Shown: positions 4,971-9,444 of the stretch, piece after piece
Position numbering within the stretch: the stretch's first letter is position 1
Layout of the letters: the number at the start of each line of letters is the position of its first letter
Assembly (NCBI GenBank): GCA_029262515.1
Contig: JAJCZH010000020.1
Span: forward strand, 1-64,000
Direction: 5' to 3'
Length of the DNA: 64,000 nt
From: Deltaproteobacteria bacterium
Lineage (GTDB): Bacteria; Desulfobacterota; GWC2-55-46; JADFVP01
Program-made: the position numbers and the translations under genes
Notes under the pieces: generated by a model
The model's database searches: none
The model's input: the letters and a program-made list of their open reading frames with translations, nothing else
Told to the model about the DNA's origin: nothing

Positions 4971-5621
4971 ATGGCTAAATACATTGCAGAGCTCATAGGG
5001 ACTTTCGCGCTAGTTTTCGCTGGTACCTCCGCAATCGTCGTCAACGATATTACGAAAGGTGGCATAAGCCATGTAGGTGTTGCGCTTACCTTCGGCTTCG
5101 TGGTCATGGCCATGATATACGCGGTAGGCGACGTCTCTGGCGCTCACATCAACCCCGCCGTCACCGTCGGCTTCTGGCTTGCGGGTAAGCTCCCTTTCAG
5201 GGACCTCTTCCCTTATCTAATCAGCCAGATAACTGGTGCCATGATTGCAAGTATATTTATTTGGTTCCTCTTCCCTGAGCACCCGGACATAGGTGCTACT
5301 CTGCCGGCTGGTACAGCCACCCAATCCTTTGTCCTTGAGGCTATACTGACCTTCCTTCTTATGTTCGTAATACTCAACATTTCGAACGGGTCAAAGGAAA
5401 AAGGCATGATGGCCGGTATCGCAGTTGGGGGTACCGTGGCACTCGAAGCACTCTTCGCAGGGCCTATTTCAGGGGCATCGATGAACCCTGCTAGGTCTCT
5501 TGGTCCTGCGCTCGTATCGGGTTATATTGTAGGTCTCTGGATATACCTTACAGCCCCGTTCGCCGGTGTGTTCCTGGTCACCCTCGGCTACAAATGCATT
5601 CAAACAAAAGGGTGCTGCTAG
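4971..5621 (+). CDS. MIP-family aquaporin
   Basis: Two NPA boxes (HINPAVT, SMNPARS), six TM pattern; C-terminal KGCC. Confidence 0.9.
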   Translation: MAKYIAELIGTFALVFAGTSAIVVNDITKGGISHVGVALTFGFVVMAMIYAVGDVSGAHINPAVTVGFWLAGKLPFRDLFPYLISQITGAMIASIFIWFLFPEHPDIGATLPAGTATQSFVLEAILTFLLMFVILNISNGSKEKGMMAGIAVGGTVALEALFAGPISGASMNPARSLGPALVSGYIVGLWIYLTAPFAGVFLVTLGYKCIQTKGCC

Positions 5622-5631
5622 ATTTAAGAGA

Positions 5632-6045
5632 ATGGAGAGTGGCATGATCAAAGATAAAATTTATAACATACTTTTTGTCTGTATAGAAAACTCTTGCAGG
5701 AGCCAGATGGCAGAGGCCTTTGCACGCATGTACGGCAATGGTAGAGTTAGGGCATGGAGCGCCGGTTCACGACCCTCCGGTGTTGTGAACCAGAGGGCGG
5801 TAAGCGTCATGCTTGAGAAGGGGTATGATCTCGGCACCCACACATCCAAGCAGCTTGATGACCTGCCGAAGGACCAATTCGATGTTGTTGTTACAATGGG
5901 ATGCGGAGACGCATGCCCATTTGTCAGGACCGATAGGCGTGAGGACTGGGAGATACCCGACCCCAGGGATATGCCCATGTACGCCTTTCGGCAGATAAGG
6001 GACATTATAGAGATGAAGGTACGCCACCTTATCTCCGAGATATGA
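5632..6045 (+). CDS. arsC: ArsC-like low-molecular-weight phosphatase / arsenate reductase
   Basis: NILFVCIENSCRSQMAEAFAR P-loop and MGCGDACPF Cys pair; ORF open from 5566, start chosen at internal ATG (5644 also possible). Confidence 0.8.
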   Translation: MESGMIKDKIYNILFVCIENSCRSQMAEAFARMYGNGRVRAWSAGSRPSGVVNQRAVSVMLEKGYDLGTHTSKQLDDLPKDQFDVVVTMGCGDACPFVRTDRREDWEIPDPRDMPMYAFRQIRDIIEMKVRHLISEI

Positions 6046-6080: not shown

Positions 6081-6198
6081 AGCCATAATATCAAGCCTCA
6101 AAACCGGGGTGTGTTGTATTTATTTTCGGTAGAACTGTTGCATACAGAAACGTGGTGATAAAGTGTGAAATACAAAAAGTGCTTTTACACAATAGTTT

Positions 6199-6740
6199 CT
6201 AACGTTACATACAACACCTTCAAAACCACCACTTCCCTAACGTAATATTACGTATCATTGCAGACGAACAGGTAAATACCGTAACGTTACGTTCTTACAG
6301 CAGACTCACAAGCCCGGATATATACTTTGAAAACTCCCGACCTTTTTGATATCTTCCCGTTATGCGAACATATGCAAAAGACAACTGGAAGAAAAAAATA
6401 GACCCCGCCTTTGACAAGGTGATCAGAAACTACGTAACGTTTATTAGCGCACCGGAAAAATCTCCGAAGGAAGGTACGCTAAACCTGCCTGAAGGTTTTA
6501 TTGAGCCTCTAACTAACACCCCTGACTGGCAAGACTCTAACGTTACGTAACGGAAAATACCTACAAAGCTACCATACCCTATAAAGTAACGTACGTTACG
6601 AGTTCAAATCTTCCTAACGTTACGTTACGTAGCGTTTCAGGAGTATAGGCAAATCCCGTACGTTAGGGGCGTTATAGAATTTTCTATTGATATATTTTGT
6701 AACACTCACTCATTTTTGCTATCTTACCTTTATGCCTACG
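6199..6740. repeat. cluster of ACGTAACGT-type short palindromes
   Basis: ACGTAATATTACGT (6240-6253), CGTAACGTTACG (6280-6291), TACGTAACGT (6431-6440), CGTTACGTAACG (6541-6552), GTAACGTACGTTAC (6586-6599), TAACGTTACGTTACGT (6615-6630), TACGTACGTA (~6737). Confidence 0.75.
6362..6550 (+). CDS. hypothetical 62-aa protein
   Basis: MRTYAKDNWKKKIDPAFDKVIRNYV...; N-terminus repeated at 6732; no clear SD. Confidence 0.35.
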   Translation: MRTYAKDNWKKKIDPAFDKVIRNYVTFISAPEKSPKEGTLNLPEGFIEPLTNTPDWQDSNVT

Positions 6741-6800
6741 TACGTAACATACACTTGGAAAGAGAAGATCGACCCTGCCCTAGAGAAGCCTATTAATAAT
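6732..6800 (+). pseudogene. truncated second copy of the 62-aa ORF N-terminus
   Basis: MPTYVTYTWKEKIDPALEKPIN; ORF then runs into antisense of the minus-strand gene. Confidence 0.4.
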
Positions 6801-6826
6801 AGTCCAGCAAGTTTCGTCAATTTGTC

Positions 6827-7711
6827 TCATGACCATTTGTTTAGAAAGTTTTCTAATATGCGTGTAATAGAACCAGATTCTTCTTCTCTTACGATATTGT
6901 TATTTTCAACAAGAAAACATTCCAACTCCCTGTCTATGAAAAGGTCATCTATCTGTCCAGTCTCTTTAGCGAATTTTACAAATAAGACCCCATGTATAGT
7001 TTTTCTAAAGTGTTCAAATTTTTTGTAGTACTTTTTATCCGGTCCTGAGGCATTTCCGGGTAATTCTTGACACAATCCAAATATCTTTAAACGAAAAGCA
7101 GGGGGTACGCTACTACCACCGTACATAACCAAAATGCAATCGGCCTTATCTACCATCGTAAGATGAAGCTCTGAAACATTGACTACAAAAAAATTATATC
7201 CCCCCAGTTTCTTCAGTAAATTTTATAGGCTTGCCCGTTTTATCTTGGCATTTACTCAATATGAGATTTTGCAATCTCACTTCTTCACCAATTGAATCTT
7301 GAGCATCCAGTGTAATCTCACAGGAACCACTTTTTTTAAGCATTGCATCAAACCATTTTGTTATCCAATTTCTTTGCCTAATTAAGCGAAGCTCAAAAAT
7401 ATTTTCGTTTCATCATATAAGTAGCAAAAATCAATTGAAGAATCACTATTTGAGATACGCTTGGTTTCATAGATTAGTTCTTGGCCGTTTGATACAAAGT
7501 CAAATGCAAATAAGGCTTCGAAAACATAACTGTTGAATTCACTCCTTTCTCTTGATGAGAATAGTGATTTTAAGAGACGGCCGTACTTGTTGGTGTCAAA
7601 GAGAACCTCCAGCTTATGCTTAAAACTAGAAACTTTATTGTCAAAAGCAGCTGGACTTCCAAATTGGCTAAGAACTTTATTGAGCCTAGTATTGATATCT
7701 TCTTTTTTCAT
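6827..7711 (-). pseudogene. hypothetical protein (~290 aa) with two frameshifts
   Basis: MKKEDINTRLNKVLSQ...ETKIF | ELRLIRQRNWITKWFDAMLKKSGSCEITLDAQDSIGEEV... | GYNFFVVNVSELHLTMVDKADCILVMYGG... contiguous across three frames; breaks near 7390 and 7200 (GGGGGG). Confidence 0.6.
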
Positions 7712-7794: not shown

Positions 7795-8242
7795 ATATTA
7801 TTTTGCATCATAAAGGAGCTGGTTATGCTGCCCAAGTACTGAGCACAAGATATATTTAATAATTCTTTAAAGTATAAGTCCATACATAACTTCAAAATAC
7901 CTTATCGGACAAAAAACACCCCATTCTGTGTCTGCGACAACGCCTGTTACGTTATCTATAATCATTTCAGTTGCATTAAATCGGTTGGTGCACCTATTCC
8001 ACCTCTCAACATTGTTGCTAGCTTACGCACCAATGTCGAGTAAGAGCGAGTAAAGCGCATAACCTAGTTTATTCACTGGAAAGGTTTTTTTAGACTAATG
8101 GAAACTAATAAACATCAAACACCGCTCTTGGTAAAAATTGGCGTGGTTATAGATAAGGCTATTGATGATGTTAATGGCAGAAGGTATACTACTGCCAAAC
8201 GGGAAACCAGCCCGAGTCAAGGTCTCAAGAAAGGAGGTCTTA

Positions 8243-9323
8243 ATGGGACTCTATAAAAGAGACCGGGTCTGGTGGATGAGGTTTAACTTTAACGGCAGGC
8301 AGATACGCCGTTCATGTGAGACCACATCCAAGAAACTTGCAGAAAAAATCTTCTGCAAAGTAATGAGTAACGTAACAGAAGGAAAGTTCTTTGAGGTAGA
8401 CCCAAGGGAGACAACATTTAACGAGCTTTGCAAAGACCTTGAGACGGATTACAGGATAAACAAGAGAAGAACCGCCGACAGGTTGGGCAGGACTCTAAGG
8501 CACCTTAAGGGTACGTTTGAAGGAATGAAGGCTGAAGATATCAGTACAAGCTTTATCCAGAACTATATCATCAAACGGCAAGACGCAGGTGCTGCCAACG
8601 CTACCATAAACAGGGAAATGGCGGCACTCAAAAGAATGTTCACCCTTGGGTTTAGAACAACACCTCGGAAAGTTACAAGCGTTCCCTATATCCACCATCT
8701 TCAAGAGAATAACGTAAGGCAGGGATACTTTGAGCATAACGAGTTTATTGCTCTTAGAAACGCTTTACCCCCCACGCCTTAAGCCTATGGTAACTATGGC
8801 CTACTATACGGGTATGAGGAAGATGGAGATTTTAGGTCTCAAGTGGTCTCAGATAAACCTGAAAGAACAGAGGATTACTCTTAGCGCACAAGATACCAAG
8901 AACAAAGAGTCGAGGGTAATCTTCATGGAAGGGGAGCTTTTAGAGGCTATACGCTCCCAGAAGGCCTTAAGAGACCGTAAGCACCCTCAATGTCGTTACG
9001 TGTTCTTCGGAGCCACAGGTAAGCCTTTCAGTGGCTTTAGAAGGGCTTGGAACAAGGCCTGCAAAGCAGTTGGGCTTACAGGCAAGATACCGCACGACTT
9101 TAGACGTACGGCTGTGCGTAACATGGTGCGAGCAGGGGTTCCTGAAAGGGTGGCGATGATGGTATCGGGTCACAAGACGAGAAGCGTCTTTGACAGGTAC
9201 AACATAGTCAATGAAGACGACCTCAAGCTTGCCGCTAAAAAAGTGCAGGAAAGATTTAGCACAATTTTAGCACAATCGGAAACACCGAGGTCTGAGACCG
9301 ATCAAAGTACGGTTGGGGTTTGA
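8243..9323 (+). pseudogene. tyrosine recombinase / phage-type integrase, single frameshift
   Basis: MGLYKRDRVWWMRFNFNGRQIRRS...; frame change at CCCCCC near 8768; then [16 protein letters not shown]..., [38 protein letters not shown] (R-H-R-H-Y catalytic region); SD AAGGAGG. Confidence 0.85.
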
Positions 9324-9357: not shown

Positions 9358-9444
9358 TGGTGCCCGAGGGGGGAATCGAACCCCCACGACCTTGCGGTCT
9401 CGGGATTTTAAGTCCCGTGCGTCTGCCTGTTCCGCCACTCGGGC
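9358..9444 (-). tRNA. tRNA-Leu (anticodon TAA)
   Basis: GCCCGAGTGGCGGAACAGGCAGACGCACGGGACTTAAAATCCCGAGACCGCAAGGTCGTGGGGGTTCGATTCCCCCCCTCGGGCACCA folds as a class II tRNA. Confidence 0.95.

Follow-up and report, generated by a model that had tools for sequence, protein, structure and literature searches.

A cluster of ACGT-cored palindromes as the possible remains of two multi-site control regions of a decayed tRNA-integrated element

We found that the palindromes crowded at positions 6199-6740 of the window (the whole 64,000-nucleotide stretch of DNA analyzed, C20) form two neighboring arrays, each at the 5' end of a decayed copy of the same gene, P320 (~320 aa). At about even odds (a probability of roughly 0.5, counted jointly with an operator function), the cluster would be what is left of two multi-site control regions, now fused, that belonged to a small tRNA-integrated element. 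Such arrays would serve as operators, with many sites for one trans-acting DNA-binding factor that would control P320 and the excisionase and integrase genes (xis-int). The element and its arrays are laid out in the window as follows.

6198..6295, no strand: array copy a, 5' of P320 remnant 1, with TAACGTTAC (6200), ACGTAATATTACGT (6240) and CGTAACGTTACGT (6280)
6240-6253: palindrome ACGTAATATTACGT, within array copy a
6280-6291: palindrome CGTAACGTTACG, within array copy a
6327..6355, + strand: promoter-like TTGAAA-N17-TATCTT, directly 5' of remnant 1
6362..6535, + strand: P320 remnant 1, an N-terminal fragment, corresponding to the tiny ORF of the sequence-only reading (6362-6550)
6536..6668, no strand: array copy b, 5' of remnant 2, with CTAACGTTACGTAACG (6537), GTAACGTACGTTAC (6586), CTAACGTTACGTTACGTAG (6614) and GTACGTTAGG (6659)
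6541-6552: palindrome CGTTACGTAACG, within array copy b
6586-6599: palindrome GTAACGTACGTTAC, within array copy b
6200, 6432, 6615-6630, 6660 and 6738: additional TAACGTTA or ACGTWACGT sites
6697..6725, + strand: promoter-like TTGTAA-N17-TATCTT, 5' of remnant 2; GTAAC overlaps its first hexamer
6732..6839, + strand: P320 remnant 2, 59% identical to residues 1-39 of the C30 P320
6827..7711, - strand: three broken ORFs, unassigned, probably decayed cargo
8098..8256, + strand: hybrid ORF, the start of a wHTH gene (METNKHQTPLLVK) fused to the C-terminal tail of an HTH_17 excisionase
8243..9323, + strand: tyrosine integrase, frameshifted near 8770
9358..9444, - strand: tRNA-Leu(taa), the likely integration target

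The palindromes named in the sequence-only reading were present where it had placed them, and the irregular spacing it described was confirmed; with short palindromes and no regular direct repeats with unique spacers, a CRISPR or a simple tandem repeat was dismissed. Two of its statements had to be revised, as its tiny ORF is not a gene but what is left of the 5' end of a decayed P320 gene, and its one array is in fact two, one per P320 5' end. Remnant 1 was 55% identical to the P320 of G011 (E 2.6e-14), was also matched by tblastn to the C30 copy, and holds an in-frame motif site at 6430-6441. In remnant 2, ACGTACGTAAC occupies 6738-6748, starting 3 nt past the start codon. Parts of array a (6236-6283) and array b (6613-6660) showed 75% identity over 48 bp, and array b resembled the leader of the intact P320 gene in C30, which has a long perfect ACGT palindrome. 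Both remnants belong to one decayed tRNA-Leu element, for which a second att repeat was not found. Its integrase (8243-9323) adjoins the tRNA, and the two halves of this gene were 66% and 74% identical to the integrase of G046, where a related element lies in the same tRNA. The end of remnant 1 roughly coincides with the start of array b, and the density of sites would thus be explained by a deletion that joined two control regions. Directly to the left of the element (4971-6045) are genes that we take, from their translations, to be aquaporin-like and ArsC-like. Beyond the G046 element there is a similar-looking porin-like gene, matched to that of the window by eye only.

The clustering was confined to this one place in the 64-kb window. 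ACGT occurred 17 times per ~570 bp in the cluster, versus an average of 1.6 per 560 bp over the window and at most 8 anywhere else, and no copy of TAACGTTA (four in total) or ACGTWACGT (five) was detected outside it. Dinucleotide shuffles of the window gave a mean of 0.35 ACGTWACGT, and none out of 100 reached five. Throughout the 2.5-Mb genome (G000), this motif was counted 33 times versus four for a reversed control pattern. The copies were not scattered evenly, since 21 of the 33 fell in five mobile-element loci carrying integrases (C20, C24, C30, C36 and C38). The remaining 12 were single, and none was near the P320, xis or int genes of the same genome; ten were within called ORFs, one (L038) was outside, and one (L046) was inside an open-ended ORF missed by the ORF caller. 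A host regulon was dismissed as far as seen, as these lone sites were not near P320, xis or int, and no regulon of the motif outside the elements was seen in the genome.

The motif array is not exclusive to the window locus: the motif is clustered in the genome as a whole and arrays occur in relatives, so that neither of the observations named as refuting in the sequence-only reading was made. Arrays preceded xis/int in C24, C30, C36, C38, G046, G011:C1 and two elements of G021, and weakly in two of G020; they preceded P320 in C20, C30 and G046. In C30 and G046 they were thus 5' of both genes, in C24 and C36 the array was between P320 and xis, and in G011:C1 it was at the start of a different integrase, with no xis ORF adjoining. 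In agreement with a tRNA-integrated tyrosine-recombinase element, the integrase was found beside a tRNA in the window, C30 and C38, with xis present as a tail in the first and in full in the other two; no tRNA was found beside the C24 element. A 46-bp att repeat was detected at both ends of C38, the only element for which both att ends were found. The arrays are near-restricted to these integrase elements: paired ACGTWACGT within 30 nt was detected in only G000 and G011 among 63 genomes of the class, and in three of 396 genomes sampled from the phylum (G000, G011 and G264), the paired site of G264 being just ACGTT repeated in tandem. Arrays were absent from most other xis loci of the same order (e.g., in G008, G012, G016, G025, G001 and G003), indicating that excision in general does not require them. 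G011:C56 had P320 and an integrase with no array, and in the stretches searched there and in a Brocadiaceae relative no alternative palindrome array was seen.

Several further observations were made in these loci. The element with the 46-bp att repeats (L031, 502-9014) is ~8.5 kb long and carries genes for a rolling-circle Rep, a SpoVG-like protein, NUDIX (PDC-S07) and MrcB-HNH. Cargo adjacent to P320 included a type III methyltransferase in G046 (L032, 7098-8717) and three genes without a clear family match in C24 (L015, 10092-14446). A broken xis with one internal stop was found in the same genome as the window (L125, G000:C24:78845-79117), and its 5-kb surroundings showed only two ACGT close together. 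A hairpin-like GACA...TGTC sequence, whose arms often enclose CCCC or GTGGG, was present before xis in several array-bearing elements (L015 8556-8620, L014 4870-4900, L032 5810-5840, window 7905-7945, L071, L072 and L092), with three copies in G020:C112; it presumably resembles the ends of some insertion sequences.

Among the roles proposed in the sequence-only reading, the operator type was favored by these positions and that of recombinase binding sites was not. Arm-type sites are unlikely, because the arrays are one whole integrase gene distant from the att end and one array has a different integrase. A TTGWAA-N17-TATCTT sequence was found a few bases 5' of the ATG in three P320 copies, i.e., remnant 1, remnant 2 and the intact C30 gene, and motif sites flanked or overlapped it. 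The C30 sequence reads TTGTAACG...TATCTT, with the same overlap of GTAAC and the first hexamer as before remnant 2. The promoter scan alone was not above its own shuffles, and the support therefore comes from the threefold repetition. P320 itself had no Pfam match above the cut-off, and its predicted structure (mean pLDDT 62) gave no meaningful fold match. It is unlikely to be the factor that reads the arrays, because arrays are present in G020 and G021, where P320 had no match at E <= 1e-8.

An unlikely alternative is that the arrays are iteron-like replication or partition sites, in which case the element would replicate after excision and an initiator or partition protein would bind the array. 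In C38, the element with both att ends found, the array is between a rolling-circle Rep gene and xis, and Rep ends 6 bp before the array. The Brocadiaceae element (L028, 4510-10529) comprises a frameshifted P320, a 363-aa ORF, xis, a 413-aa ORF and the integrase, with no ACGTWACGT; its 413-aa ORF may be helicase-like, and the presence of these two ORFs between P320 and int would be in line with replication, as would the iteron-like difference in copy number between the sister copies C24 and C36. However, a Rep gene was beside the array in C38 only, most array-bearing elements seen having none near it, and the arrays recur 5' of P320 as well as xis. Moreover, P320 had no match in plasmids, its distant relative in C38 had none in plasmids or phages, and with A1 no relative was found in viral contigs.

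The sites were also found within coding sequences. Synonymous shuffles that kept the protein and the codon usage (2000 per gene group) showed that half-sites were in excess in P320 (13 observed vs 2.5 expected), xis (8 vs 2.1) and int (12 vs 4.1), with 0 of 2000 shuffles doing as well in each case, the near-identical C24 and C36 not being independent in these counts. No enrichment was detected in cargo (1 vs 1.6 expected) or in host genes (4 vs 5.2 expected), in gene groups that were chosen by hand and in which C38's genes for the rolling-circle Rep and the SpoVG-like protein counted as cargo. It thus seems that the motif is maintained as DNA sequence throughout the element backbone. The spread itself counts against an operator, which would not usually extend into coding sequences as these sites do.

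In other genera the ACGT core was kept, and the flanks and spacing were altered. G021 had dense ACGT arrays 5' of xis in two elements, with GC, GT or CA flanks and a spacing mostly of 10-12 in one element and 6-13 in the other, and all 19 of its ACGT-triplet matches fell in these two elements; the weaker arrays in two elements of G020 had AT or AA flanks. The mean flank similarity was 0.90 within genomes versus 0.51 between them, and 5 of 9450 label assignments did as well, in a test of ten elements from five genomes whose array regions were chosen by eye and in which the within-genome pairs came from only the three genomes with at least two elements. The integrases of G000:C38 and G021:C44 were 71% identical and both were beside tRNA-Glu(ttc), and the flank cosine was only 0.22, whereas those of C38 and C24 were 39% identical, with a flank cosine of 0.91. 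The array spelling thus seems to go with the host genome and not with the element, as though a host-level factor were reading the array. The dialect is not unique to one genome: G011 and G046, which belong to other families of the order, have arrays similar to those of G000.

It is also unlikely, and to much the same degree as the iteron alternative, that the arrays are autoregulatory sites of the element's own excisionase, an oligomeric wHTH protein similar to BldC or RdfS. The xis product is of the HTH_17/excise type and matches the BldC and MAD1 models more weakly, and most arrays are 5' of xis; RdfS, which acts at its own promoter, and BldC, which binds direct repeats, are the precedents (PMC11963761, PMC5859096). 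Against this, Xis proteins of differing sequence share one dialect in G000, and the orthologous xis of C38 and G021:C44, 59% identical, differ in dialect. In addition, the G011:C1 array has no xis ORF beside it and other xis have no arrays. Xis is unlikely to be the sole reader of the arrays, because the dialect does not follow xis identity.

Less likely still is a methylation-sensitive switch, in which the state of the element would depend on a host DNA methyltransferase whose target has an ACGT core. ACGT is constant in all dialects, the flanks vary, and some elements have a methyltransferase, such as the type III enzyme of G046; in G011:C56 there is an ORF that we take, from its translation, to be cytosine-methyltransferase-like. 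These enzymes are, however, cargo of single elements, and ACGT elsewhere in the window showed no matching flank bias.

Between arrays of different elements the longest exact words in common were 11-19 nt, the exception being the near-identical sister pair C24/C36, with 30 nt; whole-array copying between elements was therefore not supported as the likely cause of the common dialect. The most improbable alternative is that the arrays are hot spots of recombination by which the modules of elements are shuffled, or a functionless product of spread by tandem duplication. The junction between remnant 1 and array b, the hybrid wHTH-xis ORF at 8098 and the tandem units found in C44 (45 bp), C146 (66 bp) and C24 (24 bp) would suit such events, but duplication leaves unexplained both the separate in-frame sites in coding sequence and a common dialect without long common tracts.

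The nearest precedent for many sites with a group-specific consensus is that of the stoperators of Cluster A mycobacteriophages (L5, Bxb1), asymmetric 13-mers that lie mostly between genes, share one orientation and are recognized by the repressor of the phage itself, with a consensus that varies between specificity groups (PMC3029335). Like them, the arrays place many copies of one short site in each element, in the backbone only and not in cargo, and their consensus is group-specific; binding by one factor would be a further likeness. Unlike them, the sites are ACGT-cored, largely palindromic or in both orientations rather than asymmetric and in one orientation, they are dense 5' of P320 and xis, and their dialect follows the host genome. 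RdfS coordinates the expression of rdfS and intS, binding to its own promoter with no clear consensus (PMC11963761), and BldC binds AATT-type direct repeats cooperatively (PMC5859096). These systems share with ours a small wHTH excisionase gene beside the integrase and a control region 5' of it, but the array is defined in sequence and does not track xis type. Multi-site operators are already known in phages.

DNA uptake sequences occur throughout the genome, unlike the ACGT motif, which is confined to mobile-element backbones. The likeness is in a short motif with lineage-specific spelling, such dialects of uptake sequences being known in Neisseriaceae (PMC3630211). In a literature search with six 10-12-mers of the motif, none of the 18 papers containing one of them, as judged by titles and abstract openings, treated it as a bacterial element.

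Collectively, the operator explanation is based on the position of the arrays 5' of xis/int and P320, the overlap with promoter-like sequence, the enrichment in backbone coding sequences, the near-restriction to these elements and the common dialect, and from these we infer protein binding, an effect on transcription and the host-level nature of the factor. Many copies of one trans-acting factor would bind the array, probably cooperatively, and the bound factor would set how far P320 and the excisionase-integrase pair are transcribed, so that the element would be kept quiet or its excision timed. A putative host-level factor would fit the dialect pattern; no candidate repressor tracking the dialect was found. 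It is doubtful, and put forward tentatively, that unrelated elements have each come by ACGT-cored arrays, which a host-level factor reads with a preference specific to its lineage, the array then being a host-matched address for P320 and xis-int. If this were true, a dialect that follows the host across unrelated elements would point to a host factor regulating foreign elements. The array would offer a defined short sequence with which to seek that factor, making host control of excision testable in little-studied bacteria.
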